Of a stretch of DNA of 64,000 nt, positions 3,286-52,238 are shown one piece after another; within the stretch, counting starts at the first letter, position 1; each line of letters starts with the position of its first letter. The stretch is from the IMG/VR virus record IMGVR_UViG_3300036398_003678, positions 57,242 through 121,241 of that record; one strand, 5' to 3'. The stretch is from a virus. The notes under the pieces are model-generated. The model was not told the DNA's origin. It worked only from the letters and a program-made list of their open reading frames with translations, and did not search any database. Made by a program: the position numbers and the translations under genes.

Positions 3286-3331
3286 GTTTTGCCTCTTATT
3301 ATTACTCTTTGTATCTATGCGATATATTTAG

Positions 3332-3859
3332 TTATACACCGGTATTAGTTAAAATAATTTGACCTATATTTATTGTGCCAATATATTGTGAACCATTTAG
3401 TGTTAATTTAATACTTTTACCAAAGTACGGCCCGATAAAAGATAAATCTCCAACTTTATTTCCTCCAACAAAGAGGCTAGCAGAAGATGGTATTGGCGCA
3501 GGCTGGCCGGGCTGAGGAAGTAAAGCAGAAGGTAAAACGGGTACCAATACGGATATATTAGATGATGAATTAGCAGGGATAACTCTAATAATTAGTAGAT
3601 TGTTGTATCTATATGTCCAATTATTTGCAAGATTGAGCACTATCTCTGGATCCACTTGCATAGAGGGAGTTACTGTTGGAGTGGGGTTAGGCGTCATATT
3701 AGGAGTAAGAGTAGGGGTCGGGGTTGGAGATCTCGACACAGAAGGCGTAGGTCCAGGAGTGGCAGGGTTTTCTAGGCACTCTACCATCATTAAATCCTCA
3801 GATGTATAGTTACCATCTGTTAAAATAGCTTTAAGTAACATGTAATTTTTTTGAGACAT
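3332..3859 (-). CDS. Small tail protein with central Thr-Pro mucin-like linker
   Basis: The product is 175 residues. Its start ATG at 3859 is preceded by AGGAAA. A short N-terminal region (MSQKNYMLLKAILTDGNYTS) resembles a capping strand. About 35 residues of Thr/Pro/Ser linker follow (positions about 3660-3765), then a C-terminal beta domain of about 105 residues with no recognised homologue. It has the architecture of its neighbours (domain, Thr-Pro linker, domain) but lacks their cysteine-bracketed Ig module. Function unknown; probably virion-associated. Confidence 0.55.
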   Translation of the reverse strand: MSQKNYMLLKAILTDGNYTSEDLMMVECLENPATPGPTPSVSRSPTPTPTLTPNMTPNPTPTVTPSMQVDPEIVLNLANNWTYRYNNLLIIRVIPANSSSNISVLVPVLPSALLPQPGQPAPIPSSASLFVGGNKVGDLSFIGPYFGKSIKLTLNGSQYIGTINIGQIILTNTGV

Positions 3860-3879
3860 ATTAAATTTCCTATATTATC

Positions 3880-35554: not shown

Positions 35555-36799
35555 CTATTTATGCAAAAAGACTCGTTCTACTTGGTTTAGATCTTCTGAT
35601 ATTTGAGATTTTAGCCCTTTTATTATATCAATGTCTACTAAATCTGGGTGAGCCCACCAATCCTCAAAAGAACTATTTTGATCGGGAGATACGTCATTGA
35701 CCACTAAAATATAACCCAGAGACTGTAAATACTCTCTAGATTTTTGTTTATATGAACGAGATATATCTATATAGTCATCGTGCTCATATGTTATTACGGC
35801 AAATTTATATTTATCAAAAGGAATACTTAATAAGGCCTCATATGTGTTTTTGGGCGGCTCTATATCTAGTTGTAAATAATCTATATTGTTTTGACCTGGA
35901 AAATATTTAGTTAACAATTTCTCATAGTTCACGATCAGAGCATCCGTACATAATACAGGGTTTTTTCTTTGATTTTTATGGGTGTTAACAAAGTCCTGAT
36001 TAAATTCTATACCAATTCCTGTCCAATCAAACTTGGTCTCTAGTAGTGCGGTATTGCTGTTTTTTAAAGCGTCGGACGAGCCTATTTCTAAGTATGACCC
36101 ATTACGCTTGCCATTTAGGGCAGTCAGTATAAACATATCCTGATATACTTGAGAAAAATTATGATCTACTAAATCTATACCTTTAAAAGTAAAGTTTAAG
36201 TTATCTTTAAGATTTTTATTGTATGGTCTTATGGCCTGAGACTCTGGGCCACTACCTAGTCTAGATAAATTATTTTCTAATAAAGTTTTATACTTATCTG
36301 TCATCTTATCAATATAATTATTAAACAGCTCCTTAAATAATTTCCTTGCCTCTAGGGGTTTTCCTATCCACCACGCCGAGGCCGCTTTCTGGAATAACAA
36401 AGCATATAAATCAGGAAATTCTATTGTAGAAAAAAATACCGACTTCTCTTCGCAGATATCTAAAGATATACTAGCATAGGTATATATGCTAGACCAATCT
36501 GATTTAGCTTCGTAATATTGAGTGAGAAAAAAATAAGCTTCTGGTTTGCGTGGACACAAAGATATAGCTTGTTTTAATAGTGTTTCACATGTATAGTCTC
36601 TGCCTCCTAGATTTCTATAGCATAGATACATCCTTAATAAAGACTCATATCGTAAGTCAATACTAGAAGTTTTTTCTGCACACCTCAAATAAAAACCTGA
36701 TGCGGGAGCGTGGTGGTTCTGATTCTCATAAAATAGACCTAAATAAAAATTATTGAGATCATTGTCGGGGTCTTTTATATAATCTGATAACTCTCTCAT
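35555..36799 (-). CDS. TPR-repeat protein fused to FkbM-like methyltransferase
   Basis: The product is 414 residues; its ATG overlaps the upstream stop (ATGA). Residues 1-180 are helical repeats of TPR type (LLRMYLCYRNLGG, LLKQAISLCPRKPEAYFFL). Residues about 205-414 match an FkbM-type SAM-dependent methyltransferase: SQVYQDMFIL at 216-225, the SAM-binding strand-loop YLEIGSSD at 236-243, GIGIEFNQDF, and YLQLDIE at 308-314. FkbM enzymes methylate sugars or related hydroxyls in other systems. With the adjacent sugar-enzyme-like gene this suggests a glycan-modifying pair. The target (virion, host or both) is unknown. Confidence 0.75.
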   Translation of the reverse strand: MRELSDYIKDPDNDLNNFYLGLFYENQNHHAPASGFYLRCAEKTSSIDLRYESLLRMYLCYRNLGGRDYTCETLLKQAISLCPRKPEAYFFLTQYYEAKSDWSSIYTYASISLDICEEKSVFFSTIEFPDLYALLFQKAASAWWIGKPLEARKLFKELFNNYIDKMTDKYKTLLENNLSRLGSGPESQAIRPYNKNLKDNLNFTFKGIDLVDHNFSQVYQDMFILTALNGKRNGSYLEIGSSDALKNSNTALLETKFDWTGIGIEFNQDFVNTHKNQRKNPVLCTDALIVNYEKLLTKYFPGQNNIDYLQLDIEPPKNTYEALLSIPFDKYKFAVITYEHDDYIDISRSYKQKSREYLQSLGYILVVNDVSPDQNSSFEDWWAHPDLVDIDIIKGLKSQISEDLNQVERVFLHK

Positions 36800-37785
36800 A
36801 ATCCCATAATCTCGTCTATAGTAGTAGTATTAACAGCTAGTAAATAAGAGGCATTGTCTTGAAACCCAAAAGTTATTAATATTTGATTGTTATAACGTGT
36901 CATACCGCAAGCGAATTCTATTTCTCCGCCCATAAAGTCAAACAACGGAGATACTCTAAGTAGATTAAAGTCCTTGTCCCATAAAATAAACCTATGTCTA
37001 TATGTGGCATTTTTGCGACCCGCTTCACTCTTAAATAAGTCTACTTCATGAACAATAGCTAAGTAATAATCTTTATAGGGGATAACCTGAGAACCGCCCC
37101 TTAAATCTCTAGTGTTCAAATTTTGATATTCTGTTAAAATAACCGTTTTAGTCTCTTTAGTTTCTGGATTATATTCCACGACTTCTGTGGGGTTTGTCCA
37201 TTTCACATACTGATACGGCCTATCCATAATGGGCATCCAATTTTTTTCACAATATGAATTATCTGGATATGGAGCCGGTAGTCTTTGTCTCGAAATTTCT
37301 TTCCAGCTATTTTGTTCAGAAACTATTTCCGATAGTTCTATTCTTCCTTGACCATTTGGTGTTGTATCCCGTCTCACGCCGCTCAAAAATAATTTCTGAT
37401 CCCAATGAACCAGCCTGCAGTCTTCTAGTCCAATAAACTCCCATAGTGGCTTAGCGTCTAGATTCTTAGTGTCCGCTATAGAATTAGAAACTATATTTAG
37501 ATTACTATCTAATTCGCAAAGTATATTATGGGTTGCTAATACTTGATGTTGTTCGGTGTGTAAGTAGCATAATGGTCCCCATACGTGTTCATTAATGCCG
37601 TGTTCAGCATGGTATAGGACATAATTAACATTACGTAAATTAACTAATAATTGTCCATTTAGATTAATAATAGAAGGATTAGTTAATGATGGTCCAATTA
37701 TGTCATTACTAGATACTAATAATGGATATAAGCCACCTCCTTGGTCTACACAATATTTGACAAAATTTGAAAGTTCGCTTTTCAT
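36796..37785 (-). CDS. Five-bladed beta-propeller enzyme, GH130-like glycosidase/phosphorylase or BMT-like transferase
   Basis: The product is 329 residues. The pattern GLEDCRL at 119-125, RRDTT, KNWMPI at 181-186, RGGSQVIPY at 229-237, HRFILWD and GGEIEFACGM at 286-295 matches the superfamily that includes GH130 mannoside phosphorylases and related beta-mannosyltransferases (the GLEDxR and RGGxxxI motifs). Which activity it has cannot be decided by eye. It is co-translated with the methyltransferase gene by a four-base overlap and preceded by a candidate promoter. Between fiber and neck genes it is a clear metabolic insertion into a structural operon. Confidence 0.7.
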   Translation of the reverse strand: MKSELSNFVKYCVDQGGGLYPLLVSSNDIIGPSLTNPSIINLNGQLLVNLRNVNYVLYHAEHGINEHVWGPLCYLHTEQHQVLATHNILCELDSNLNIVSNSIADTKNLDAKPLWEFIGLEDCRLVHWDQKLFLSGVRRDTTPNGQGRIELSEIVSEQNSWKEISRQRLPAPYPDNSYCEKNWMPIMDRPYQYVKWTNPTEVVEYNPETKETKTVILTEYQNLNTRDLRGGSQVIPYKDYYLAIVHEVDLFKSEAGRKNATYRHRFILWDKDFNLLRVSPLFDFMGGEIEFACGMTRYNNQILITFGFQDNASYLLAVNTTTIDEIMGL

Positions 37786-37849: not shown

Positions 37850-38644
37850 TTAGACACCATATCTTCCTCTCAATTGATTGAAATTGGAAGAAATTTCTGA
37901 TTGCGATAAAGCTCTGTTATAAATTCTCAAAACAGGCAGTCGTCCTAAAAACCGACCGCCGCCAGAACCCCAAGCAGCAGAAGTACTAACCAGAGTGACA
38001 CCGGTGCCATTTGTAAAAGAAGTCAAATTATATGTAAATCCAGTGCCTTGCGCCAAATTTTGCTGAACCCCACCAAGAAAAACTCTATTAACTCCTGACT
38101 GTCTAGTCCAACATAAATGTCTCCAGGTATTGACCGCGCCCGCTTTATTTAAGCTTGTATTAAAACAACCATTGACCGTGCTCAAATCAACCCCTACTTG
38201 AAGCCTGTCTCCAAATCCAGTATTACCAAATCTAATTCCCAGAAGACCAGAAGTAAACAACTCTCTATAGTTTGCATCCGTTGTCGTCAAAAAAAACCAA
38301 GTTTCTATGCTAAAATCTGTAAGCGATGACATTGTGTTATTCATGACTATTGAATCATTTACCCCATCAAATGTAAAATAGCCACTATTTAGCGAAGAAT
38401 ATCCAACGCCGTTTAATAATGTGCCTGAATTCCTATTTATACTAACATCGTTTACAACAGTGCCAGATCCAGGATAGCTGTTTGGGTTTGCTGCATCAAA
38501 AAATAGTATTAGTCCATCAACGATACTTGGCCATTGATTATTCCTAATAGATGAACTTACTTGATCTAAAGACCAAACTCCACTAGCTAGTAAATCTGTG
38601 GGAGTGTTTGCGTTTCCTATTGTATTTGCAAATCTTTTTCCCAT
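37850..38644 (-). CDS. LamG/concanavalin-like lectin tail protein
   Basis: The product is 264 residues, starting at the ATG that shares a base with the upstream stop (TAATG). The N-terminal segment GVWSLDQVSSSIRNNQWPS is the short anchor motif seen in many phage fiber proteins. The rest is a LamG/concanavalin-type beta-sandwich: GLILFFDAANPNSY, GYFTFDGVNDSI, FSIETWFF, TWRHLCWTRQ and LPVLRIYNRALSQSEI. It ends in NQLRGRYGV, nearly identical to the end of the upstream gene's product, so the two are paralogues. It probably binds glycans, either on the host surface or on the virion. Confidence 0.7.
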   Translation of the reverse strand: MGKRFANTIGNANTPTDLLASGVWSLDQVSSSIRNNQWPSIVDGLILFFDAANPNSYPGSGTVVNDVSINRNSGTLLNGVGYSSLNSGYFTFDGVNDSIVMNNTMSSLTDFSIETWFFLTTTDANYRELFTSGLLGIRFGNTGFGDRLQVGVDLSTVNGCFNTSLNKAGAVNTWRHLCWTRQSGVNRVFLGGVQQNLAQGTGFTYNLTSFTNGTGVTLVSTSAAWGSGGGRFLGRLPVLRIYNRALSQSEISSNFNQLRGRYGV

Positions 38645-39459
38645 TAAACACCATACCTGTTTCGGAGAGCATTGAAGTTTTGAGATATCTCGCTTGCCGA
38701 AAGCGATTTGTTATATATTTTAACGCTACTCACAGCACCCGAGAAAAGACCGTATTGACCGGCGATAAACTCTCCCGAATTATAAAAAACGCTTGCTCTC
38801 AGACTCGTAAACCCATTTTTTATAAAAACATTATTGATATACAGACTTGGCAGTTTGTTGGTATAAACAATGACAATATTAGTAAAAATAGTATTGGATA
38901 TGGCTACAGCATGAGATAATAAAGGGGCGAGATAAGCGTTTCCATGCTCATAAACACTGAGGCCGTTCGTCCCAAGAGATATTCCTGCTCCACCGTTTGT
39001 TGCGGACTGAGCTGGGAAAAGAAGATATCTTTGTCCTGTCAATCCTGTTGTTCCAGAAGTGGCCTGGGCGTTAACGGTTATGGTCGCGGTTGGTCTCGCC
39101 CACACGTCTAATGAAAAGTTGTTTGTTCCGATGTTTTCGTATGTTCGGTTTGCACTCTGGTTGGTTCCGTTGAAACTTAAAAATCCCCCGTTATTTGAAC
39201 TGTATGAGGGAGAGTTAACCAATGTTACGTGACGATTGTTTCCGCTTAAATCATTCCATGTGCTACCCGACCCGGCATATGACTCGGGAATGCCCGCATC
39301 CATATTCATTTGCAATCCATCTCCGACTATCTGAACTGGCCACTGATTCCGTCTATTCCTATTTTCAATCTCATAAATATTCCAAATTCCATTACCAGCA
39401 GATAATGAAGATGTTCTTGTTGCTCCTATCATGTTTCCTTCTCGAAAAACAACACCCAT
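38644..39459 (-). CDS. LamG/concanavalin-like lectin tail protein, paralogue of the next gene
   Basis: The product is 271 residues from the ATG at 39459 (GAGG eight bases upstream; the stop of the previous gene overlaps as TGATG). It has the same layout as its neighbour: an anchor segment (GIWNIYEIENRNRRNQWP), then a concanavalin-type fold (LQMNMDAGIPESY, TWNDLSGNNRHVTL, GGFLSFNGTNQSANR, NFSLDVWARPT, SSVKIYNKSLSASEI) and an ending NALRNRYGV. The two genes look like a tandem duplication that has diverged in the binding surface. A role in host-glycan attachment is inferred. Confidence 0.7.
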   Translation of the reverse strand: MGVVFREGNMIGATRTSSLSAGNGIWNIYEIENRNRRNQWPVQIVGDGLQMNMDAGIPESYAGSGSTWNDLSGNNRHVTLVNSPSYSSNNGGFLSFNGTNQSANRTYENIGTNNFSLDVWARPTATITVNAQATSGTTGLTGQRYLLFPAQSATNGGAGISLGTNGLSVYEHGNAYLAPLLSHAVAISNTIFTNIVIVYTNKLPSLYINNVFIKNGFTSLRASVFYNSGEFIAGQYGLFSGAVSSVKIYNKSLSASEISQNFNALRNRYGV

Positions 39460-39830
39460 CAACGCACCTCTTCATAAGAGCACACAATTGTCAGATCTCC
39501 ACCCGCACTAGCCTGAACTGTGAGCCTTCTGTCTTCTTCAAGCCAAATTGGAGCGTCTCTGCCTACTAAAACAACGGTAGCATCCGCTGGAACAGTAACG
39601 GTATTGACGATTGGAAAACCCGTTCCAGCCGTGGCGGAATTGTATATCCTCAAAGTACAATCGACCGAAACCACTCCGTCAATATTCGCTGCATAAATAG
39701 ATACTATTTTTATAGCAGCATCGGAGTTAGCTGCATTAACTAAAAGATTGGTTTCTGTTGTGTTTGCGAGCGTTAAATATGTTGTTTTTCCATTAACGGT
39801 CGTTGGCGACATGAGATTAGGCGTTACCAT
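39459..39830 (-). CDS. Small beta-sandwich virion protein
   Basis: The product is 123 residues, with a strong GGAGGG ten bases before the ATG at 39830. It is an all-beta protein (TTYLTLANTTETNLLV, IKIVSIYAANIDG, TVTVPADATVVLVGRDAP, LTVQASAGGDLTIVCSYEEV). It resembles the 126-residue protein at 54245-54625 in size and strand pattern. Such proteins in phages are usually small decoration or tail proteins. It overlaps the upstream gene by 14 bases. Confidence 0.55.
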   Translation of the reverse strand: MVTPNLMSPTTVNGKTTYLTLANTTETNLLVNAANSDAAIKIVSIYAANIDGVVSVDCTLRIYNSATAGTGFPIVNTVTVPADATVVLVGRDAPIWLEEDRRLTVQASAGGDLTIVCSYEEVR

Positions 39831-40401
39831 AATTTATTCCCTCCAGTTCCTCTATAGTGGTTGATGATTTTATTTGAAGTCTTAACAATGAATCTTCTTG
39901 GCTTAGTTGAGATCTTGCTTGTCCATAGGCTAGCATCAAAGAAGTCAAGTCCTGAATATTCAATTCGTGGCTAACTCCTTCAATATCTATGATCGTGGTT
40001 GAGTTCTGCAATCCCAGAGCCGAAGCTTCTTTGAGCAATAAGAATGCTCCCATAAGCAATGTAACATCAGAAATATCTAAACCGAGGCTCCAACCATAAG
40101 GAGTAGCCCATCCCGATTTGATTTTTTCTTTCCAAACCTCGTCAAGAGCTTCTAATTTTTGTTGTTTGGCTTCTTCAAGGCTGGGCATTTTTAAATTAAT
40201 ATCTTCTTGAGTAATCTCCGTGATCATAAAGCCGGACAGCTCTAATATTTCGGGATCATTTGACCATTGTGATGGATCCGTTCTTGTTGACCCGTCAGGT
40301 AATCTAATTCTATTAGGAAGCGTCTCAATTAGCCCGGTTAATTTATTTCTGTAATAAGGAGGCTGTCCATAGTATTTTAAAATTAAATTATTATCAATCA
40401 T
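39817..40401 (-). CDS. Tail fiber assembly/DUF4376-like protein
   Basis: The product is 194 residues. The N-terminal part (YYRNKLTGLIETLPNRIRLP) resembles host- or fiber-recognition segments of phage fiber chaperones. The C-terminal half (SLEEAKQQKLEALDEVWKEK, GLDISDVTLLMGAFLLLKEA) matches the helical DUF4376-type domain usually found in tail-fiber-adjacent phage proteins. It follows the collagen-like fiber, consistent with a chaperone for it or for the downstream fibers. Confidence 0.6.
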   Translation of the reverse strand: MIDNNLILKYYGQPPYYRNKLTGLIETLPNRIRLPDGSTRTDPSQWSNDPEILELSGFMITEITQEDINLKMPSLEEAKQQKLEALDEVWKEKIKSGWATPYGWSLGLDISDVTLLMGAFLLLKEASALGLQNSTTIIDIEGVSHELNIQDLTSLMLAYGQARSQLSQEDSLLRLQIKSSTTIEELEGINYGNA

Positions 40402-40412
40402 TTATTAGTTTC

Positions 40413-41045
40413 CTAGTTAAAAATTGTACCTATATAGTAAGAGTTTTTAGTGGCATTGGTTCCTTGAATGCCTTGAATGCCTTGACTGCCGGTCAAACCT
40501 TGACTGCCGGTCAAACCTTGAACGCCGTCTATTCCTTGACTGCCGGTTAAGCCTTGGACTCCTTGACTGCCCGTGATACCTTGACTGCCGGTTAAACCTT
40601 GACTGCCGGTTAGGCCTTGAATTCCTTGACTGCCGGTTAGGCCTTGAATTCCTTGACTGCCCGTTAAGCCCTGACTGCCGTCTATTCCTTGACTGCCGGT
40701 TAAACCTTGACTACCCGTAATACCTTGAATACCTTGGCTGCCCGTGATGCCTTGAACGCCTTGACTTCCCGTACTACCGGAGGTGCCTTGACTACCAGTT
40801 ATTCCTTGAACACCCTGACTACCCGTGCTACCGGCGGTACCTTGACTGCCCGTGATACCTTGAACGCCCTGACTACCGGACGGACCTGCGGTATTTACAT
40901 AGACTAACGTGTTCCAAGCAGTAACACCGTCTCCTACTTTAAACCTCTGTGTATCTATTTCAAAAACAATTTCGCCGGCCGCAAGTATAGGATTAACAGA
41001 AGCCAAAGTAGCGGCTGTTCCTCGTTTGTTTTGAATTGTTGGCAT
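40413..41045 (-). CDS. Short collagen-like tail fiber
   Basis: The product is 210 residues. Residues 1-50 match the Mtd-like N-terminal motif of phage fibers ([34 protein letters not shown]). Residues about 55-195 are collagen-type Gly-x-y triplets of the form [12 protein letters not shown] with almost no proline. The C-terminus is a short cap ([10 protein letters not shown]). It is separated from the long collagen-like fiber by the oxygenase-like gene. Collagen-like stretches form rigid triple helices in other phage fibers. Confidence 0.8.
40470..40885 (-). repeat. Collagen-like DNA repeat tract (short fiber)
   Basis: A 9-base-multiple repeat encodes Gly-Ser-Gln/Gly-x-Thr triplets; on the plus strand it reads as CCTTGACTGCCGGT-type units. 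Higher-order units of 18 and 27 bases are shared with the tract in the longer fiber gene, which would favour recombination between them. Confidence 0.85.
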
Positions 41046-41084
41046 TATAACAACCTCTATAAAAACTTTTTTATCAGTATATTC

Positions 41085-41531
41085 TTAGCCTATATCAAAT
41101 CCGATAGAAAATCTATTACATTTTGACCAAACACAGTGCCACTGGGGGATATTAAATATTCTAATATTAAAACCAATCTCATCTCTATCTATTAGAATAT
41201 TATCTTTTTCAATATCGTACCAATTCATACCACTATCACCACTTTCTGACCATGATATATATATTCTTTTGCCAGATTTTGGACCGTTAGTATGCCACCC
41301 CATACCGCCGCGTGGTGGATAAAATATGAGATTTTTGCATCTGTACCCTAAAATTTCCATGTGCTCTTCTAAAAATATTTTTTGAAAATAGCCGGTTTTG
41401 TTTTCATAATCCAACAAGTCTGATGGCCTATCAAATAATTTATCAAAATTAAAACCTGGCGTATTAACATAATTTATATGTTTATTACTTAATAGTTCTG
41501 TAATATTGATGTTATTTAATTTAAAATTCAT
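41085..41531 (-). CDS. 2OG-Fe(II) oxygenase-like protein between two collagen-like fiber genes
   Basis: The product is 148 residues; its ATG overlaps the stop of the upstream collagen-like gene (ATGA). Core motifs are GWHTNG with His80 and Asn82, RIYISW at 89-94, FNIRIFNIPQWHCVW with His132, and NRFSIGFDI with Arg140. The order His-x-Asn ... His ... Arg fits a compact 2-oxoglutarate/Fe(II) dioxygenase, with Asn in place of the usual Asp/Glu ligand. Closely similar small proteins with a GWHTN motif are known from T4-like cyanophages. It could hydroxylate a fiber residue; because the neighbouring collagen repeats nearly lack proline, the substrate is unclear. Confidence 0.65.
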   Translation of the reverse strand: MNFKLNNINITELLSNKHINYVNTPGFNFDKLFDRPSDLLDYENKTGYFQKIFLEEHMEILGYRCKNLIFYPPRGGMGWHTNGPKSGKRIYISWSESGDSGMNWYDIEKDNILIDRDEIGFNIRIFNIPQWHCVWSKCNRFSIGFDIG

Positions 41532-43231
41532 TGTATATTAGCCGAAAAAGATTGTACTCTCGCTCCCCATTCATTTAAGATATATAATCTGATTATATCA
41601 TTAGTAGCTACAGAAAATGTCGTAGATCTAGACAGCGTGGCTCCGTTTGTTAAGGGTATCTCCCAAGCCAATAGATTGTTTTTCGTGACCTGTATTACAT
41701 CGCACCCAAAATCGCCACAACCACTGCGTACTGTCGTTGTTAGGTTTAATGTTCCTGTAGCAAGACATGTGAACATTAAATATGTGCCATTATTTTCAAC
41801 CAACCCATTCCATGTTAATGGGCTAGAAGATGTACCAGAACCTGTAGCCGAATCAAATACTCCAGTTGAAGCTTTTTGTAAAGAGGCTGATAATACCGAA
41901 CTGGCTGTTGGAGTGGGAGTCAATGTGGGCGTCTGAGTAGGAGTACTGGTTATTGTGGGAGTATTGGGAGGTAGGATCACGCCACAATCGATGGTAATAT
42001 TAGTATCTAGTTTTGATGTGGTAATAGCCCCGTTAGCAATATCTACTGTTGTAACAGAGTCGGTATTAATACTCAAAGTAGCTCCGCCATTGCTTATCGT
42101 AATATCTCCTTTATTACCATCTGAAAAACCTTGACCTACAGGACCGGTTGCTCCAATGGTACCCTGCGGGCCTGTTATCCCCTGACTACCCGTAACGCCT
42201 TGACTGCCCGTGATACCTTGAACACCTTGACCTCCCGCGCTACCGGAGGCTCCTTGACTTCCGGTGGTACCTTGACTACCGGTTAAGCCTTGACTGCCCG
42301 TGATACCTTGACTTCCAGCAATACCCTGGCTGCCCGTTAAGCCCTGACTACCAGTAGTACCTTGACTACCCGTAATACCTTGAATACCTTGGCTGCCCGT
42401 GATACCTTGAACTCCTTGACTGCCAGCGCTACCCGTGGTGCCTTGACTACCCGTAATACCTTGAACTCCTTGACTGCCAGCGCTACCCGTGGTGCCTTGA
42501 CTACCCGTCAAACCTTGAACGCCTTGCGAACCCGTTAAGCCTTGACTACCAGTCAAACCTTGACTGCCTGTTAGGCCTTGAATACCTTGATTGCCCGTTA
42601 AGCCTTGACTGCCTGTGATTCCTTGGCTACCCATGGTGCCTTGACTGCCCGTTAAGCCCTGACTACCGGTCAAACCTTGAACGCCATCAATTCCTTGACT
42701 TCCTGTTAAGCCCTGACTACCAGTAGTGCCTTGACTACCGGTTACTCCCTGACTACCTGTGGTTCCTTGTAAGCCAGTTATTCCCTGACTGCCAGTGTTG
42801 CCCGTAGTTCCTTGACTACCAGTTATTCCTTGAACGCCTTGACTACCCGTAATGCCTTGAACACCTTGACCTCCCGTGCTACCCGTGGTACCTTGACTAC
42901 CAATAAACCCCTGAATACCAAATAAACCCTGTATTCCTTGTGTACCAATAATTCCCTGAACGCCCTGAGTACCTTGAATAGTGGATATATTATTTAGTGT
43001 AGACTGTAAATTATTAATATCGGAAATATTATGTGAATGACCACCAATACTAACGCCCGTGCCATTAACAAAAATACCCTGACTAAAATTACCAGTACCA
43101 GCCACATCTAATTGATATAATGGATTGCTAACATTTATACCAACATTATTATTAGCTATATAAATAGTATCACTAATGCCAGAAGCATTAATAGACTGTC
43201 CTAAATTAGCGTTTTTTCTAGATATGGTCAT
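41528..43231 (-). CDS. Long collagen-like tail fiber with Thr-Pro linker and C-terminal beta domain
   Basis: The product is 567 residues. Residues 1-90 form an N-terminal region closely related to the small protein at 54638-54949 (SRKNANLGQSINASGISDTI, SIGGHSHNISDINNLQS), including a GHxH pair typical of metal-binding fiber knots. About 280 residues of Gly-x-y triplets follow ([12 protein letters not shown]; Thr and Gln dominate the third position), then FSDGNKGDI, a Thr-Pro linker (about 430-450) and a 120-residue C-terminal beta domain. It is a classic fiber with an anchor, a triple-helical shaft and a distal domain. Confidence 0.8.
   Translation of the reverse strand: MTISRKNANLGQSINASGISDTIYIANNNVGINVSNPLYQLDVAGTGNFSQGIFVNGTGVSIGGHSHNISDINNLQSTLNNISTIQGTQGVQGIIGTQGIQGLFGIQGFIGSQGTTGSTGGQGVQGITGSQGVQGITGSQGTTGNTGSQGITGLQGTTGSQGVTGSQGTTGSQGLTGSQGIDGVQGLTGSQGLTGSQGTMGSQGITGSQGLTGNQGIQGLTGSQGLTGSQGLTGSQGVQGLTGSQGTTGSAGSQGVQGITGSQGTTGSAGSQGVQGITGSQGIQGITGSQGTTGSQGLTGSQGIAGSQGITGSQGLTGSQGTTGSQGASGSAGGQGVQGITGSQGVTGSQGITGPQGTIGATGPVGQGFSDGNKGDITISNGGATLSINTDSVTTVDIANGAITTSKLDTNITIDCGVILPPNTPTITSTPTQTPTLTPTPTASSVLSASLQKASTGVFDSATGSGTSSSPLTWNGLVENNGTYLMFTCLATGTLNLTTTVRSGCGDFGCDVIQVTKNNLLAWEIPLTNGATLSRSTTFSVATNDIIRLYILNEWGARVQSFSANIQ
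42140..42975 (-). repeat. Collagen-like DNA repeat tract (long fiber)
   Basis: About 830 bases of 9-base-based repeats encode collagen triplets. Perfect duplicated blocks are visible, for example near 42410-42500, where a 54-base-scale unit occurs twice. Long spurious plus-strand frames arise from it. Confidence 0.85.
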
Positions 43232-43328: not shown

Positions 43329-46300
43329 TTAAGCCCGTAAAATATTACTATTAAAAGCGTTTAATATCTGATTTAAGCTAATAATTTCAGCATCCGTAAA
43401 AGATAATCCCACCGAATACATTCCTATAGCAGCATTTGTTAGTACGCCTGGGCCATGTGTTGATGAATTTTTGTTAAAAATCCCAATTGTGGACGATCCT
43501 GGAGTTCCGGGGGTTACAACGGTCGAACCGTCAACGTCAAATATCCCGTTTTTATAAATCCTTCCTTGAGTAGAAGAGCCTGTACCTAACCAAAAAGTAG
43601 GAGGAGTATAAGAAGTACCCCAAACATAATCATTCCCAGCCCCTGAATAATATCCCATAGAAGAGGCCTCTCCGTTTGCGCTGATACTCCATGAGCTAAC
43701 ATTACTAGCTCCATTATCGGATCCTATTAAAGCTCCATAACCTCGCGTATTTTTTACCGTTTCATAAGCAGATAAGTGGCGATTATTCGTGGTTAAAACC
43801 GATTGAGCCAAATTGGTCAACAAATACTTATTACCAGAAAAAGACCCTTGTAATCCAGAAGTTTCTGAGTAATCGGAAGCTATAAAATTATTATTAATAT
43901 CAATATGAGATCCATAAAGAACAGTAGCTGAAGGGCCTAAATATAACGGAGTCAAAGCAGAAACTAGATTGTTTCCACAAAATAGATTTAATCTATAAAA
44001 TTTATCTCTCAAACCATTTGCATTAATACTATTGCAAAAACTATTTACAGAGCTAGCAGTATTAGAAGATATAGAACCTCCATTTGTATAAACTCTATTA
44101 ATCCATAGTTTAGCATCATTGTTTGTTACGGAAGCGAAGGTGTTGCTTGGTTTGCCTCTAGCAAGACCATCATTAAATGCGTCTATAATAGATGTTAGTG
44201 TGGCTATTTCTGAACTTGTTAAATTTATACCAATAGTATATAAAGACAATCTAGCGTCTGTATGAGTACTACCAACACTTGTTGCTCCTATTTTTTGAGC
44301 AAATATTCCTATAGAAGTAGTATCTGGGGCACTGATAGTGTTAACAGAATTGGTGGTTAAAGTATCCGAATATAGCTTATTCAACCCATCACTATCGGTA
44401 AGACCAATCACAAATGTTTTTTCCGTCATTAACATACTAATACCTGTGGATAGTTGTCCAGACGCATTACCTGTCCAAAAACTTGCTACATTTGTACCAA
44501 CATCTGTTTGTAGTCTGGTATCAGAAGTCCAGTCGAGCGTAGCGGCATTGGTTTTTGCGCCCATAATCATTCTGTATGGCGCAGAAGGTAACTTATTCAT
44601 AACCACGCCCAAATGTCTATATGTAGCAAAATTTTGTGGCAGCATAGTGTCTAGCCACTTATTTGAGGCGTTGCCTATTAATCCACTATTTTCACTATAG
44701 TCAGCTGATACAAAGTTATTATTTGTGTCTTCTACGCCTCCGTATCTGATTCCAGAAGTTGTTTGGCTACAATATATCGGCGTTAAACAAGACTCCAAGC
44801 CGTTTCCGCAAAATAAATTAACTCGATAGAATTTATTTCTTAATCCGGCAGCGTCTATACTATTACAAAAAGTATTAACCAAATTAGCGGTGCTAGACGA
44901 TGCCGAACCGCCCTTAGAGTATACCGTATCTATCCAAATTTTAGCGTCTTCATTATCTATTCCCGCAAATCCAGTACTAGATCTACCTCTATTTAAACCC
45001 AAATTAAATGTTTCTATAATTTGATATAATACGTTGTGTTCGGAGTCTGTGAGCGGCAAGCCTATGGTATAACCAGCAACAGTAGCGTCAGAGTGCGAGG
45101 ATACACCAGCACTACTATTTGTAGCTAAAATAACAAAAGAATTAGGGTTTGTGTCTGATAACTGACCGCTAATATTAGTGGTTGTAACTACGCCTCCTAC
45201 TCCTCCAGTATAAAATCTAGCGCTATTATTGGCATTGCGATTAACTACATAAAGTTCTTGAGCATTGTTTTTATAAGATATTATTGTACCACCACCCCCC
45301 GATCCGCTAAAAACCGCAGACATAGTATTAGATAAGACAGCATGATTTATTTGAAATCTGTCATTATTTAAGTCGTTAGTTGTGCCTATCAATCTTCTGT
45401 TATTAGATTGACTGCTTTTGGTCATATATATGCCAATATGTCCTGTTCGGAGATTGTCGGGAAGTTTATTGGGGGCCAAACCAGTATTCAAAAATTTGGT
45501 GGATCCATCACCACGTAACCCTGCCCCTACTCCTGTTTCAACATAATCCGAACTAGTAAAGTTATTGTTAGCGTCAATTAAACTACCATACTGAATAGTG
45601 CGATCAATTCCTTTGTACAGCGGAACACTCGCTGCATTCACATTATTTCCGCACATCAAATTTAATCGATAGATTTTACCCCTAAGACCAGCAGAATCTA
45701 TACTATTGCAAAACGTATTAAGAAGATTTGCTGTAGTACTAGATACCGTGCCGCCATTATAGTATACATTATCTACCCAAATCTTCGCATCTTCATTCGT
45801 AACTGATGCAAAAGAAGCGCTTGGTCTTGTTCGACCCATAGACGTATTGAACGCATCGATGGCGTTGTAAAGAGTAACGGTTTCGGCCGAAGTTAATCCT
45901 AAGCCTATATGATACATTGAAATTCTACCATCTCCGTAATTCGCTAGTGTTCCGTTATTATTTAGAGCGTGAATAACAAATCCGTCTGATCCTCTGGCTG
46001 CAGACACGGAATTGGATGATGAGCCAGATATTCCGTTCCAAGAATGGAAGAAATTATTACCGGCTGTCCTAGAATAAACATGATAACCAAAAAGAGTAGA
46101 GTTGGTTGGTTCAGCTGGATAGTATGTGGCACCATCCAACCCTCTAGTAAATCCATCTCTATAATACAAAACGGTCGTATCTGCATTAGTGTTTTGGGCG
46201 ACTCCTAGATAGGTACTAAATGCTTTGGATGTAGGCTCAGAAATAAATGCTCCAAAAGATATACTAGAATTATTAGTATAATCTGTGCCAAGTCCGGTGT

Positions 46301-48380
46301 CTAACCTTTTATTTGAACCATTGCCCTTAATACCAGCAAAACTACCGCTCTGATTATAGTCGGAACTAGTAAAGTTAGTATTTATATCAATTAGAAATCC
46401 ATGCTGTGTACTGCTAACACCCTGTCCTCTATAAAGAGGTACAGTAGCAGCATTTAAGTTGTCTCCACAGAATAAATTGAGTCTAAAGAACCTGCTTCTT
46501 AATCCGGCAGAATCTATAGTGTTACAAAAATTTTGTACAGCAGTTGCGGTTGACAGGCTGACAGTTCCACCGTTTTCATATACTCTAGTAAGCCAATCTC
46601 TAGCATCAGCATTAGTGATACTATCAAAAGTTGAACTTAGTGTTGTTTGTTGTGCTCGTGATAATGCCGCTTGGAAAGTTTGCATTATATCGTAGTAATT
46701 CTGTACATCAGCAGATGTTAATGATGTTCCTATAGAATAGCCTTGTAATCTATCCAAATAATTAAATAGAGCAATGCCGTTTCCTACTCTATTTTCAGCA
46801 AAAATTGAAACAGTACTAACTGTGGTGGGATTCAAAGCATTTGCAAACGTTAGATCTCGCTGTCCCACCACATTAGCTCTACCCTCATAAAGATTAAGTA
46901 TGTAATTAGAATAATTACCAACATAAAGTCCTTTTCTTGTTGGATATATAGCTGTGGTTGAGGTATTAGTTTGATTTAACCGAGCATTAGCAAAAGCTCC
47001 AACATTATACCCGGCCAAACCTATTTGTAATGAAAATCCTGTACTAGCACCATCATATGCTCCCATAGCATATCCACCACTAGTTAGATCTTTGCTATAA
47101 ATAGCATAGTGCATGTCGTTATTTAACTGACTAATAGATCCTGTAATAAGACCAGTGTCTAAATATCTTCTAGAAATATTGCTATTTCCAGCAATTTCTT
47201 GAGTATTTCCTAACAATCCTTGATTTTCTATATAGTTAAAATCGTCAGAATTAACATAGTATCCGTATGATATAGGTATATTAATGTCATTTTGATTGCC
47301 ATATCTAGGACCTAGGCGAGCTGGTGCTCTATATAAAGGCACTAAGCAACTATTAATAGTATTTCCACAGAATAAATTAAGTCTATAAAACTTATTTCGT
47401 AATCCAGCAGCATCTATACTATTACAAAAATTATTAACAGCCAAAGCCGTACTGATACTTACAGTGCCATTATTAGTATAAACAGCATCTATCCAAGATT
47501 TAGCTTCGCTATTTGTAACGGAGGCGAATTGTGCCGATGGTCGAATTGGGAGTCCTCTTCCAAGAGACGTTTGGAAATCTTCCATAATACTACTATATGT
47601 TGATACTTCCGCATCAGACATGCTATGGCCAAAACTATACCCTTTAAGATATCCGGAAATATATGTGAAACCAGAAGCTCCTACTGATCCATTAGTAAAT
47701 ATGCCGATCTGTGATGTTTGGGGTGTTTGATACAACATATTAAGAGAGTTTTGGGAAACGGTGCTACCTTGTTCATACGATTTAAAATTGGTAGCACTGC
47801 TTCTATTTGATACAAATAAACCCCCGAAATAAGAGCTTCTTGTCGGCACAAACGGCCCATAGTTAGAACCTAAATAGTGTCCGTCTGTGGTATCAAAAAA
47901 AGCAATACTAATTGATCCACCGCCCATAACTACTCTGTTACCACCAGCATATTCATTAGTATCGATATTGTATTGAGTCTGATAAAAAGCCATATGACCA
48001 AAATCTGACGCTCCTATAGCATCAAAAGATACTCCTGTCAATAAATGGTTTCCCTGTGCTGTTGAAATCAGCCCATTTTTTTCATCATAATTAGGTCCTA
48101 CAAAACCGTTATTTGTATCCGTTCTACTTCCATAAAATGTATTATTATCAGGACCCAAATATAACGGCGTTAAGCAAGCAGCTAGGTCATTACCACAAAA
48201 TAAGTTAACTCTATAAAATTTCTTTCTAATTCCAGCAGCGTCTATTCTATTGCATAAAGAGTTGACCCGATCCGCTGTTCGTTCACTAACGCTTCCTCCG
48301 TTTTGAAAAACTCTATCTACCCAATTTTGAGCATCTTTATTGGAGACTTTAATGTTGTGTCGAACAATAGACGATCCAAT
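43329..48380 (-). repeat. Six tandem coding repeats of about 840 bases
   Basis: Unit starts lie near 48345, 47520, 46620, 45815, 44970 and 44135 (minus strand). The central motif IDAAGLRNKFYRLNLFCGN is nearly invariant, while the middle of each unit differs. The protein units, each about 280 residues, would fold as repeated beta-sandwich domains. Confidence 0.85.
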
Positions 48381-51300
48381 ACTATTTGGTGAAGAGTATG
48401 ATCCTAATCCCCATTTTTCAGAGAGATAGTTCTCAACCATGGCTCTTTCATTATCTGTTAATACACGATCATATCTGATACATTCGGCAACATACCCGAT
48501 CATTCTTCTGGCTGTTTGCCCTCCTCCTGTTCTTGCACCTATTTGAACTCTGTTTGCTGCGGCGTTTAATGTAACTCCGGTACCCGTAAAGTTTTCTTCT
48601 AGATTTCCATTCACATATATTAGAGAATTGGAGGTATTGCTTTGATTATAAACTCCCGTAATAACCCTGGGCAAACCCAGCATACTAGAGTTTGTGTTAC
48701 TAGAAGAGGTTGTACCAGCGCCAGCACCATCCAAAAACACCAAGCAAGCTCCTGCCGCCGTTGATCCTATATAACAAAATCCTGGACCATTAAGTCCTCC
48801 AGTACTATCTCCGTGTGTCACAATACCAGAAACATCTCCGGAGTGAGAATCTATTCTGCACACCACAAATAGTGTGCAAGGAGCCGCATATGGTCTATTT
48901 ACCTGAGATAAAAGATCGTCTCCGCCATCAAAATAAAGCATAGGTCTGCCATTTTGCATATTCGTGCGATATGTCGGGCGAGCAGAAACCGTAGCCTGAA
49001 TAACGTCTTGTCCAGAAACTTTATCAGCCCAGTATGCAATAGTTTGTCCGTCCGCTGAAACATTAGTACTTGCCGCCGTATCAACAAATAGTGTTTTAGG
49101 GTCATTCGCATCAAGCCACATAGAGCATCTTGATATGTCTGTTGGTTTAGATATAGATGTAGTTAATTTGTTGATATTCCATTTATCGTGCAGATATTTT
49201 TCAACTAATTTGCGCTCTTGATCGCTCACAGCCCTATTGTAACAAATAAACTCTCCTATGATCATACCGCCGGTACCAAGAAAATTAGCATCCGAACTAT
49301 AACCGGCTATAATCAATACATCATTAGATCCAGTAGATAGGTTACCATCTACTCCGAGGTTGTTCTTTGGTAATAAAATACCATTACGATAAACGTTAGT
49401 AGAATTCCATATTGTTCCATTACTTTTAATAACAGATTCTATAATTGGTAAGTTCTTCGTTTGTGGAGGATTATTAATGGTTATTCCATTAGTTCCGCCA
49501 TATTCTATACGATCATCAAATTTTGCTATTTGAGTATATCCACTATAATTACCAAATCTAAAAACTACTTGATTATTAACACCAGGCTTTGTAATATTAC
49601 AAACCCAAAAAAAACTTAGTTCCTCTCCCGGTACAGTATTAGCTAGATAAGCAAGTAAAAAGCCAGAATTATTTTCAAAAGACACGGCTCTTTTACCATT
49701 AATAAAACCAATTTCTCCTTGTTTTTCTATTCTATACTGAGAAAGAGCAAAATTTAAATCTGTTTTATTCTTCCAATAACCTATTTTTTCTCCGGGCTGA
49801 CTGCTTTTGTCATGCAATGTAGTCTGCATACCCCATTTTTTAGACAAGTATTGTTCTACCCGTGCTCTATTTTCAGTTCCTATATCAGTATTAAAGGTAA
49901 TAACTTCTACTATTTTACCTTTCATGACGACTCCCGAAACTCCACCTCCGCCCGAGTAAGTAAAACCAATAGCGTGATTGTTTCCTCCGTCGTGACCAAG
50001 ACCTGATTGCGAATATATGTGATTACCATTCAATCTAACAAATAAAGTTCCAGATGCTGACCGAACAGAAGTAATATTAGTTCCAGTCCTGGGCCTATCC
50101 CAAGTGAAGGTTGCTGATTTATTATTAGTAAAATATCCAAAATTACTAGATCCGTCATATGTAAAATACGCATAGTTAACTTTAGTCTGATAAAGAGAAT
50201 ACGATACTGTATTATCAGGTTCAAAAACAATAAAGACTTCGCCAAAAGTAGGAAACACAGCAGATAAATTCCCTATTAAAAAATGATCATCCGCCCCATC
50301 AAATGTTATAGCAGGAAGGTCGTTGATAGATCCTGAATATGATGGCCTATAGCTAGAAACATCTTGTCTAGCATGGCGATTATTTCCTGTTTTATCTGCC
50401 CAATATCCTACCTTGCTATTAGCGGTTGTTGCAACGTGGTTGTCTGTTGTATTCCACTTATTAGCTAAGTACTTTTCGACAGAAGCTCTTTCTTCTCTGG
50501 TTAAATTACGATTATATGCTAAAATTTCATAAATATACCCGGTCATTCCGGATGACCCATTGCACGATGCCCCAATATTAGAAAGCAGAGACGATGCAGG
50601 GCCAGATCCCATAGAAGAATCGATAAAAGAAGATAGTCCTGCTTGCCATCCACTATAATTAGTAGATCCAGATCTAGATAAACATATCATTTGTACGGAG
50701 GTGGGTATGCCGACTTCTGTTGGAAAAGCTATTTCTGGTCCAGAGTTATAAAACTGAATATTTGTTGAATTTGCTCCAGGATTATTGTAGTACAAAGCGC
50801 TTGCGTAACAGCCCGGGGTTCGCCTACCTAAAATTACTTCTCCATCATGAACTGCTGTTCTTTGACATACTAAAAACACAGTATAGTCTTGCGTACTACT
50901 AGTAAGAGAGCCCGATATTTGAGTAGTTAATAATGTTGAATTAGCATTAGAAAATTGTAATCCCTGTAAATTATTTTGTGGATTAATATTTCTAGAAGGC
51001 CTTTGATTATTATTAAGTTGAGTCGCATGGAAGCCGTTGCCACTTTTATCTCTCCAGGCTCCAATTGTATCTCCGCTATTCGTAACGGTACCATTAACAT
51101 CAGAAATATTCCACTTATCGGCTAGATATTTTTCAACTCTATATATTTCATCATTCGTCAACCTGCGATTAAAAGCACAGACCTCGGCCAGCCTAATATC
51201 TCCGAACCTAGAGCCAGCGTATGAGTTGTGAGAATCTGCTCCTACCGAAAGACCAAAATTCGGGGACACTCCGCTAGTAGCGACATTAGTATTGACCGTT

Positions 51301-52238
51301 GTAATTGTGCGATCAGAGCCCTGTCCTCTCATGAATACAGATGGAGTAGAAGCTTCATAGGCCAGAGTATGCAGCCATATTGTTGCGTCAGGGGAGCTAT
51401 TTGTATCAAAAGTTACGTTCTGTTTATTGTGGGCGCCACCTTGGCTTATGACAAATTGTAAACGACCATTATGAGGATTTTGATCTTCTACAAATATCCC
51501 GAAGCTATTGATGTTTGATTGATATAATGGCTCTCCGTTTCCAAACCAGTAACGATAATCTGATGATACGGACGGGGTGTCGCCTCGTTGACCAACGAAG
51601 ATCCATGTCATACTACCTCCTGTAGCCCATCCCCATTCTGAAGCGGTCTGATTAGAAAGGATATCATCTATGCCATCAAAATGCACCGCTCCAGAAGAGA
51701 AGACAGATGTTGACCGAATTGGTTTTTTAGACCCGGTTGCCTGCTGAACATGTCTGGCATTACCGCTCTTATCTCTCCATAGTCCAACCGTATTGCCCAC
51801 CGAAGAAGGAGTGAGTCCCGCTGTATCTTCAAACATAGAAGCCGGATCTGAAGCATCAAGCCAGAATTGACAACCGCCAATGTCTGTAGGCGCAGATACA
51901 GGAGATAGTGGTCCTACATTAGTTTTATATATTGATGTATTATCAGCAGCATCCAGCCACAAAGCACACCCACTAACTTCTGTTGGACTAGAAACCGCAG
52001 TAACTGGCCCAGCACTAGTATTATATAATGTAGAGGCATCAGAGCTATCATACCAAGTAGAGCAACCGCCAACACTGGTGGGTGTAAAATTATCAGGAAC
52101 AGTTACAGATCCTTGATAATCGGTGGTAAATAGTGTAGATTCATCAGTAGCATCTATCCAAACCTTGCATCCAGGAAGTTTGGTTGGATTAAAGTCTAAA
52201 TTATCATCATTATTATTTGATGGAATTAAATTTCCCAT
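43329..52238 (-). CDS. Giant 2969-residue adhesin: five LamG lectin domains plus six 280-residue repeats
   Basis: The ATG at 52238 is preceded by AAGGAT. Residues 1-115 contain three truncated starts of the LamG motif (GCKVWIDATDESTLF, GCSTWYDSSDASTLY, GCALWLDAADNTSIY). Five complete LamG/concanavalin domains follow (about 120-375, 375-595, 595-805, 805-1025, 1030-1280), each with an AxWxDKSGN-type motif and ending VEKYLxxKWN. Six repeats of about 270-290 residues then run to the end. Each opens NxDAKxWxxxVYxxGGTVS, then FCNSIDAAGLRxKFYRLNLF and CGN, and closes LTSAEIxxLxxIxxAFN. It is probably a long repetitive host-binding fiber; a role in surface attachment is inferred. Confidence 0.8.
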   Translation of the reverse strand: MGNLIPSNNNDDNLDFNPTKLPGCKVWIDATDESTLFTTDYQGSVTVPDNFTPTSVGGCSTWYDSSDASTLYNTSAGPVTAVSSPTEVSGCALWLDAADNTSIYKTNVGPLSPVSAPTDIGGCQFWLDASDPASMFEDTAGLTPSSVGNTVGLWRDKSGNARHVQQATGSKKPIRSTSVFSSGAVHFDGIDDILSNQTASEWGWATGGSMTWIFVGQRGDTPSVSSDYRYWFGNGEPLYQSNINSFGIFVEDQNPHNGRLQFVISQGGAHNKQNVTFDTNSSPDATIWLHTLAYEASTPSVFMRGQGSDRTITTVNTNVATSGVSPNFGLSVGADSHNSYAGSRFGDIRLAEVCAFNRRLTNDEIYRVEKYLADKWNISDVNGTVTNSGDTIGAWRDKSGNGFHATQLNNNQRPSRNINPQNNLQGLQFSNANSTLLTTQISGSLTSSTQDYTVFLVCQRTAVHDGEVILGRRTPGCYASALYYNNPGANSTNIQFYNSGPEIAFPTEVGIPTSVQMICLSRSGSTNYSGWQAGLSSFIDSSMGSGPASSLLSNIGASCNGSSGMTGYIYEILAYNRNLTREERASVEKYLANKWNTTDNHVATTANSKVGYWADKTGNNRHARQDVSSYRPSYSGSINDLPAITFDGADDHFLIGNLSAVFPTFGEVFIVFEPDNTVSYSLYQTKVNYAYFTYDGSSNFGYFTNNKSATFTWDRPRTGTNITSVRSASGTLFVRLNGNHIYSQSGLGHDGGNNHAIGFTYSGGGGVSGVVMKGKIVEVITFNTDIGTENRARVEQYLSKKWGMQTTLHDKSSQPGEKIGYWKNKTDLNFALSQYRIEKQGEIGFINGKRAVSFENNSGFLLAYLANTVPGEELSFFWVCNITKPGVNNQVVFRFGNYSGYTQIAKFDDRIEYGGTNGITINNPPQTKNLPIIESVIKSNGTIWNSTNVYRNGILLPKNNLGVDGNLSTGSNDVLIIAGYSSDANFLGTGGMIIGEFICYNRAVSDQERKLVEKYLHDKWNINKLTTSISKPTDISRCSMWLDANDPKTLFVDTAASTNVSADGQTIAYWADKVSGQDVIQATVSARPTYRTNMQNGRPMLYFDGGDDLLSQVNRPYAAPCTLFVVCRIDSHSGDVSGIVTHGDSTGGLNGPGFCYIGSTAAGACLVFLDGAGAGTTSSSNTNSSMLGLPRVITGVYNQSNTSNSLIYVNGNLEENFTGTGVTLNAAANRVQIGARTGGGQTARRMIGYVAECIRYDRVLTDNERAMVENYLSEKWGLGSYSSPNSIGSSIVRHNIKVSNKDAQNWVDRVFQNGGSVSERTADRVNSLCNRIDAAGIRKKFYRVNLFCGNDLAACLTPLYLGPDNNTFYGSRTDTNNGFVGPNYDEKNGLISTAQGNHLLTGVSFDAIGASDFGHMAFYQTQYNIDTNEYAGGNRVVMGGGSISIAFFDTTDGHYLGSNYGPFVPTRSSYFGGLFVSNRSSATNFKSYEQGSTVSQNSLNMLYQTPQTSQIGIFTNGSVGASGFTYISGYLKGYSFGHSMSDAEVSTYSSIMEDFQTSLGRGLPIRPSAQFASVTNSEAKSWIDAVYTNNGTVSISTALAVNNFCNSIDAAGLRNKFYRLNLFCGNTINSCLVPLYRAPARLGPRYGNQNDINIPISYGYYVNSDDFNYIENQGLLGNTQEIAGNSNISRRYLDTGLITGSISQLNNDMHYAIYSKDLTSGGYAMGAYDGASTGFSLQIGLAGYNVGAFANARLNQTNTSTTAIYPTRKGLYVGNYSNYILNLYEGRANVVGQRDLTFANALNPTTVSTVSIFAENRVGNGIALFNYLDRLQGYSIGTSLTSADVQNYYDIMQTFQAALSRAQQTTLSSTFDSITNADARDWLTRVYENGGTVSLSTATAVQNFCNTIDSAGLRSRFFRLNLFCGDNLNAATVPLYRGQGVSSTQHGFLIDINTNFTSSDYNQSGSFAGIKGNGSNKRLDTGLGTDYTNNSSISFGAFISEPTSKAFSTYLGVAQNTNADTTVLYYRDGFTRGLDGATYYPAEPTNSTLFGYHVYSRTAGNNFFHSWNGISGSSSNSVSAARGSDGFVIHALNNNGTLANYGDGRISMYHIGLGLTSAETVTLYNAIDAFNTSMGRTRPSASFASVTNEDAKIWVDNVYYNGGTVSSTTANLLNTFCNSIDSAGLRGKIYRLNLMCGNNVNAASVPLYKGIDRTIQYGSLIDANNNFTSSDYVETGVGAGLRGDGSTKFLNTGLAPNKLPDNLRTGHIGIYMTKSSQSNNRRLIGTTNDLNNDRFQINHAVLSNTMSAVFSGSGGGGTIISYKNNAQELYVVNRNANNSARFYTGGVGGVVTTTNISGQLSDTNPNSFVILATNSSAGVSSHSDATVAGYTIGLPLTDSEHNVLYQIIETFNLGLNRGRSSTGFAGIDNEDAKIWIDTVYSKGGSASSSTANLVNTFCNSIDAAGLRNKFYRVNLFCGNGLESCLTPIYCSQTTSGIRYGGVEDTNNNFVSADYSENSGLIGNASNKWLDTMLPQNFATYRHLGVVMNKLPSAPYRMIMGAKTNAATLDWTSDTRLQTDVGTNVASFWTGNASGQLSTGISMLMTEKTFVIGLTDSDGLNKLYSDTLTTNSVNTISAPDTTSIGIFAQKIGATSVGSTHTDARLSLYTIGINLTSSEIATLTSIIDAFNDGLARGKPSNTFASVTNNDAKLWINRVYTNGGSISSNTASSVNSFCNSINANGLRDKFYRLNLFCGNNLVSALTPLYLGPSATVLYGSHIDINNNFIASDYSETSGLQGSFSGNKYLLTNLAQSVLTTNNRHLSAYETVKNTRGYGALIGSDNGASNVSSWSISANGEASSMGYYSGAGNDYVWGTSYTPPTFWLGTGSSTQGRIYKNGIFDVDGSTVVTPGTPGSSTIGIFNKNSSTHGPGVLTNAAIGMYSVGLSFTDAEIISLNQILNAFNSNILRA

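Follow-up and report, generated by a model that had tools for sequence, protein, structure and literature searches.

Organization of the fibre locus

The window analysed here is a stretch of viral DNA of 64,000 nucleotides (IMG/VR record IMGVR_UViG_3300036398_003678, positions 57,242 to 121,241), in which an oxygenase-like gene lies between two collagen-like genes on the minus strand. The original prediction, made from the letters alone, had the oxygenase-like gene overlapping the first collagen gene through ATGA and preceding the second by 39 bases, and the reading frames agree: the 210-aa collagen-like gene begins 39 nt past the end of the oxygenase gene, and all three genes share the same strand. 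The features of the locus are as follows.

41528..43231, minus strand: 567-aa collagen-like tail fibre, whole gene (reading frame and Pfam Collagen match, 1.5e-43)
42128..42973, minus strand: stalk of 94 collagen-like GXY triplets in the first fibre (2 prolines, zero at Y)
41897..41971, minus strand: Thr-Pro linker joining the collagen-like run to the tip (aa ~421-445), sequence PPNTPTITSTPTQTPTLTPTPT
41531..41893, minus strand: tip domain at the C-terminus of the 567-aa fibre (aa ~447-567, ~120 aa)
41528..41531, minus strand: ATGA, 4 nt in which the stop codon of the fibre and the start codon of the oxygenase overlap (identical overlap in the related locus L006)
41085..41531, minus strand: 148-aa oxygenase-like enzyme (reading frame and family alignment)
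41292-41294 (His80), 41286-41288 (Asn82), 41136-41138 (His132) and 41112-41114 (Arg140), minus strand: predicted metal and 2OG residues
41085..41890, minus strand: mobile cassette of tip domain and oxygenase, ending at the oxygenase stop codon (block common with L006)
40413..41045, minus strand: 210-aa Mtd_N and collagen-like protein (Pfam Collagen 4.3e-26, Mtd_N 1.8e-12)
39817..40401, minus strand: 194-aa protein, weak DUF4376 match (E 0.061, below the cut-off)

Two parts of this layout had been overlooked. The 567-aa fibre, which runs from an N-terminal part through 94 GXY triplets and the Thr-Pro linker, is closed by a non-collagen tip domain for which a Pfam search gave zero matches, and the 210-aa protein opens with Mtd_N, the Major-tropism-determinant N-terminal domain. 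The latter protein has no tip domain and lies outside the cassette of tip and oxygenase. Translation of fibre and oxygenase is likely coupled through the ATGA overlap, and the 194-aa protein is, judging by its sequence, possibly a tail-fibre assembly protein. Beside the fibre cluster lie a 2969-aa protein of many repeated modules (43329-52238) and a tandem pair of LamG/ConA-type genes (37850-39462); elsewhere the window holds sugar-enzyme-like genes (35555-37785) and a 1156-aa protein with fn3 and DUF285 (5e-46) at 60195-63665, which is unusual in a phage structural region.

Composition of the collagen-like runs

The unbroken runs hold 94 GXY triplets in the first fibre and 48 in the second, 142 in total, the most frequent being GSQ (46), GLT (18), GIT (15) and GVQ (13). 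Lysine is absent from the triplets of either run, while proline occupies X in 3 triplets and Y in 0/142, so that the near-absence of proline that had been predicted is borne out. As Y is the site used by collagen prolyl 4-hydroxylases, the substrate feature of these enzymes (Pro at Y, X-Pro-Gly) is missing from both runs, which supports the earlier view that classic collagen prolyl hydroxylation is not the main activity.

The use of viral prolyl 4-hydroxylases has been called cryptic, with collagen pointed to (PMC9301287). The PBCV-1 prolyl 4-hydroxylase (Eriksson 1999, cited in PMC9301287) is discussed as modifying virus proteins, collagen-like targets being proposed. It belongs to an algal virus, and its peptide substrates contain proline. 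The system in the window differs from it in being without Y-position proline and in having a fibre tip as partner.

A family with a His-x-Asn site

The window protein carries the motif GMGWHTN...WH...R; a Pfam search gave it no significant hit, and its one weak match in PHROGs is to an unannotated PHROG. A first scan of viral contigs returned two distant relatives besides five near ones, and several hundred candidates in viral contigs fit the pattern G[GFY][MV]GWH[TS]N. Because this pattern enforces the Asn, a second search was seeded by the C-terminal half of the protein alone, and His-Thr-Asn was found in 58/58 proteins with a readable site, the residue preceding the motif Trp varying between Gly and Ser. 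Over the whole set, HTN or HSN is present in all 149 readable proteins, and an Arg follows the distal His by eight residues, at the start of the last strand, in 148/149. His80, Asn82, His132 and Arg140 are invariant in the 38 aligned members (38/38), and both His, the Asn and the Arg are retained among members down to 22-30% identity. The His-x-Asn...His ligand set, proposed for a single protein, is a property of the family.

With regard to known iron sites, both His of the His-x-Asp/Glu...His triad are present and its carboxylate is replaced by Asn throughout, which likewise departs from the SyrB2-type Fe/2OG halogenases, where Ala or Gly replaces the Asp. The Arg on the last core strand is the predicted residue for the 2OG 5-carboxylate. 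As the His-x-Asp/Glu triad is lacking, the enzyme is not a confirmed 2-His-1-carboxylate member.

Existing models do not recognize the family: Pfam and NCBIfam models, including PF13640 and its kin, match 0/40 members, PHROGs matches phrog_61 weakly in 2/40, and no relation was detected when the family profile was set against three canonical 2OG oxygenases of phages. Members occur in 2/50,697 annotated phage records, never named as oxygenases, and are abundant in uncultured viruses; the family is known essentially from uncultured viruses alone, and without annotation. Within a partial coverage of the literature, no relevant paper was found on a His-x-Asn iron site or on a His-x-Asn phage family. 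Phage C48C1 (OQ984149) has three matches to the family in one genome, one adjoining a NifU-like gene.

Predicted fold

Sequence profile searches of solved structures returned nothing credible, and fold assignment therefore rests on predicted structure together with the motif. The member L070, modelled with 33 relatives, reached a pLDDT of 93.8 and a pTM of 0.89, and all 50 of the structural matches listed for it are entries of the 2OG-oxygenase fold. The top matches are PiuC and the Trichoplax PHD (both Z 11.7), P. putida P4H (11.4) and PHD2 (11.3), aligned over 141-147 residues, and PBCV-1 vCPH, a viral prolyl hydroxylase, follows at Z 10.8. The model of the window protein is weaker, with a mean pLDDT of 71, a core mostly above 90 and a poor N-terminal 60 residues; its best full-length structural matches are P4H and PHD2 (Z 8.4). 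A double-stranded beta-helix is accordingly present in the L070 model and less clearly so in that of the window protein. For the latter low-confidence model the GGCX beta-domain outranked P4H (Z 10, ~98 residues), and it was set aside, being absent among the 50 matches listed for L070.

In PHD2 the HxD-type motif, the distal His and the Arg lie on defined core strands, and both models place their counterparts on those same strands: HxN closes the second strand, while the distal His and the Arg open the seventh and the eighth, respectively. The spacing of +9 from the first His (His80) to the conserved Arg89 fits that of His313 and Arg322 in PHD2. The models and structural matches support the oxygenase-like fold that had been predicted, and on them the enzyme would have the P4H-branch fold and a ligand set that is non-canonical. 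It resembles the PHD/P4H branch (PHD2/EGLN1, P. putida P4H, PiuC and PBCV-1 vCPH) in the full-length beta-helix of the L070 model (Z 10.8-11.7), the His pair and the 2OG-type Arg 8 residues past the distal His; it differs in having His-x-Asn in place of His-x-Asp, in its smaller size (148 aa) and in showing neither detectable sequence similarity nor a match to a Pfam 2OG model.

Tip and oxygenase as a mobile cassette

The evidence on the partner of the enzyme comes from the near relative L006, whose oxygenase is 88% identical to that of the window. When 15 kb of the window is compared with the 12-kb L006 locus, the sole DNA similarity is a block at 41085-41890 (89% nt) that begins with the tip and ends at the stop codon of the oxygenase. 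The gene upstream in L006 is a different fibre, with another N-terminus and a long TTTTVAPTTTT stalk; it has the same tip domain and the same 4-nt overlap. A backbone structural protein (window 54967-57567) is 64% identical in amino acids in the L006 record and lies ~70 kb from the oxygenase there. Tip and oxygenase thus make up a single cassette that has changed both its fibre and its place in the genome. Between the two phages dN/dS is 0.16 for the oxygenase and 0.31 for the fibre tip, indicating purifying selection on both, and the window-type tip domain, when scanned alone, returned the same 5 contigs as the near relatives, with the oxygenase in 5/5. The co-inheritance of an enzyme with a particular tip, as in a dedicated fibre-modification cassette, is thereby observed. 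At 3199-4473 (minus strand), the L006 locus also encodes a subtilase-like protein with an N-terminal LENRSLL motif, which resembles a planctomycete surface-protein signature and may give a hint of the host.

A search of the 152-kb record of L006 gave no collagen domain, and the second collagen gene downstream of the oxygenase is absent there; tip domain and oxygenase are kept in these nearest relatives, at 87% identity. Since in the 15 kb compared only tip and oxygenase are shared with this collagen-free relative, the unit is tip plus oxygenase. The joint function that had been read from the gene order is thus supported with regard to the fibre and not with regard to collagen, which is rejected as an obligate partner; the collagen interpretation is replaced by that of a tip-oxygenase cassette. 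Another reading, in which Gln, Thr or Ser of the triplets is oxidised and the stalk is the main substrate, could draw on the collagen runs on both sides of the gene and on the collagen-bearing fibres that precede some members (L007, L020, L021, L023, L086, L112 and L116). Most fibre-linked members have no collagen next to them, however, the closest relatives keep the enzyme under purifying selection in its absence, and the triplets offer no proline at Y, so that this explanation is considered very unlikely.

Neighbourhoods across the family

The 149 members were dereplicated to 75 at 80% identity and three genes per side were read. Of these, 46/75 (~60%, a raw count) are at most two genes away from a gene for a fibre, a gpJ-type tail tip or a tail chaperone, or are fused to such a gene. 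For this count, the seeds of the second scan for members were fibre-linked, assignment to the fibre class depends in part on single-linkage clustering, and L006 and L007 were labelled by hand; L144, whose preceding fibre has the same C1q-like tip as that of L086, would raise 46 to 47. The neighbours of the fibre-linked members include gpJ tail tips, tail chaperones and fibres with Gly-rich, C1q-like or lectin tips. These partner tips show no sequence relation to one another (Gly-rich, C1q-like, C-type lectin, GGNDNN-type and others; that of L007 matches Lectin_C at 2.3e-13), so that they point to no common target residue.

In ten viral loci, forming two 80% clusters, the oxygenase is followed by a Phage_tail_APC domain in a single protein (E 5.5e-13). 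In other loci Phage_tail_APC chaperones (PF16778) adjoin the oxygenase; the window protein itself lacks this domain, which is distinct from the oxygenase. A scan with the GGNDNN tip, in which the enzyme was unused, gave an oxygenase ~0.5 kb downstream in 18/18 loci at tip identities down to 33%, where the seeds were tips known beside the enzyme, several of the 18 loci are close kin and the alignment had been narrowed beforehand, its first version being too diverse.

Whether members also lie away from fibres, which had been offered as a way to refute the joint function, has a mixed answer: against the fibre-linked majority stand a clade adjoining ThyX (10 representatives), which by inspection has a cyanophage-like gene order with DUF3310-type neighbours, and bacterial members (7). 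Because of these two groups, fibre modification is not the job of the whole family. Fibre regions are recombination hot spots, and a moron or AMG-like gene inserted there by chance, with no functional tie to the fibre, would also be expected to occur elsewhere in the genome, as some members do. Such an origin is nonetheless very improbable given the 18/18 and 5/5 pairing with particular tips, the conserved overlaps, the fusion to a tail chaperone and a cassette whose ends match tip start and enzyme stop.

For contrast, five annotated canonical loci were sampled from the 284 annotated phage records found with a canonical query (phrog_61, PF13640). The copies of S-H35 and ACG-2014a lie by UvsX/gp41 and that of ACG-2014h by DenV, while those of a Rhizobium phage and P-SSM5 have hypothetical neighbours alone and are uninformative; a control scan of the contigs with one canonical oxygenase returned that oxygenase alone. 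The phrog_61 cyanophage 2OG-Fe(II) oxygenases are thus alike in being phage-encoded and of the same fold class, and a few lie near members of the new family; they differ in having no sequence relation to it and in that the informative sampled copies do not adjoin fibres. Canonical-looking 2OG oxygenases are seen in fibre regions at L060:10570-11148, L100:4186-4764, L086:8706-9323 (PF13640), L123:4216-4842 and L102:4153-4806, and these loci may carry several fibre-modifying enzymes. A protein of ~112-143 aa with a ParB-like DGRHR(L/I) motif is also found near the oxygenase in 19/75 representatives (L070:8306-8650, L060:8246-8581, L027:3204-3551 and ~16 more loci).

In the L016-L025 lineage a NodU/TobZ-type carbamoyltransferase (PF16861, 2e-56) overlaps the oxygenase by 17 nt, and such a gene lies within three genes of the oxygenase in L016, L019, L020, L021, L023, L025, L055 and L123. 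In cephamycin biosynthesis, the 2OG hydroxylase CefF is followed by the NodU-type O-carbamoyltransferase CmcH; this is a small-molecule pathway, and by analogy with it the overlap suggests that the fibres of these relatives may be hydroxylated and then O-carbamoylated. Neither this carbamoyltransferase nor a PF13640 oxygenase was found in the window's own record.

Substrate and activity of the enzyme

The neighbourhoods also bear on whether the substrate is a protein at all. The enzyme could instead act on a sugar or other small molecule destined for the fibre or the host surface; the bacterial members L176, L177 and L181, which have an HTN site, adjoin NeuD/PglD-like hexapeptide acetyltransferases or other sugar-type genes and possibly have a non-phage function, and the window has its own sugar-enzyme-like genes. 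Gene overlap, transfer as a tip cassette and chaperone fusion point rather to a protein partner, and the nearest folds (PHDs, P4Hs and Tpa1) are mostly protein hydroxylases, which leaves a small-molecule substrate improbable.

The main rival is a catalytically dead tip chaperone, because prolyl 4-hydroxylase loses its activity with Ala, Gly or His at the Asp position, Asn not being among the variants (PMC2767507). Here catalysis would have been lost with the change of Asp to Asn, leaving the fold as a tip-specific folding or trimerisation chaperone, in keeping with the family-wide replacement of the carboxylate ligand, the fusion to or adjacency with tail assembly chaperones and the strict pairing of one tip with one enzyme. 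A pure binding protein, however, needs none of the His, Asn, His and Arg that are invariant over very divergent members, and the carbamoyltransferases, canonical oxygenases and methyltransferase that recur in the same loci are what a modification cassette would hold. A pseudo-enzyme is therefore unlikely, while being the alternative to be taken most seriously.

The preferred explanation, which is given slightly better than even credence, is a dedicated fibre-tip modifying enzyme of the PHD/P4H branch of the 2OG fold, with an Asn ligand, that hydroxylates the tip or linker after ATGA-coupled translation. It is supported by the fold match of a member, motif conservation, purifying selection, co-inheritance, the fibre neighbourhoods and the chaperone fusion. 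From these we infer metal and 2OG binding, catalysis, and the substrate residue and timing described below, while hydroxylation is suggested by the fold class of the models. The enzyme would be translated directly after the fibre via the overlap and would bind the tip as soon as it is made; in other phages it would do so alongside a tail assembly chaperone or as a fusion with one, and in those lineages the chaperone may deliver the enzyme to the nascent fibre. At least one side chain, in the tip or in the adjoining Thr/Pro linker, would then be oxidised, most likely hydroxylated, ahead of the mounting of the fibre. The NodU-type carbamoyltransferase of some relatives may cap the new hydroxyl by O-carbamoylation. 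As the window phage has no carbamoyltransferase in its record, its end point would be hydroxylation alone, or glycosylation by other enzymes.

Implications for phage host recognition

The genetic partnership of tip and oxygenase is unusual. Because the oxygenase-like gene travels with the fibre tip and not with the collagen stalk, the findings suggest that receptor-binding tips undergo chemical finishing in many uncultured phages. The fuller proposition, that a 2-His-1-Asn enzyme family does so in many uncultured phages, each with its own tip and some further capped, is put forward tentatively and is more doubtful than probable. A natural family with an invariant Asn at the iron-carboxylate position would test the strictness of the 2-His-1-carboxylate rule. 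Phage host range is usually predicted from fibre tip sequence, which by itself would be misleading if the tip is chemically altered by an enzyme inherited with it; if tip finishing is the true function, host recognition would depend on an installed chemical group and not on sequence alone.
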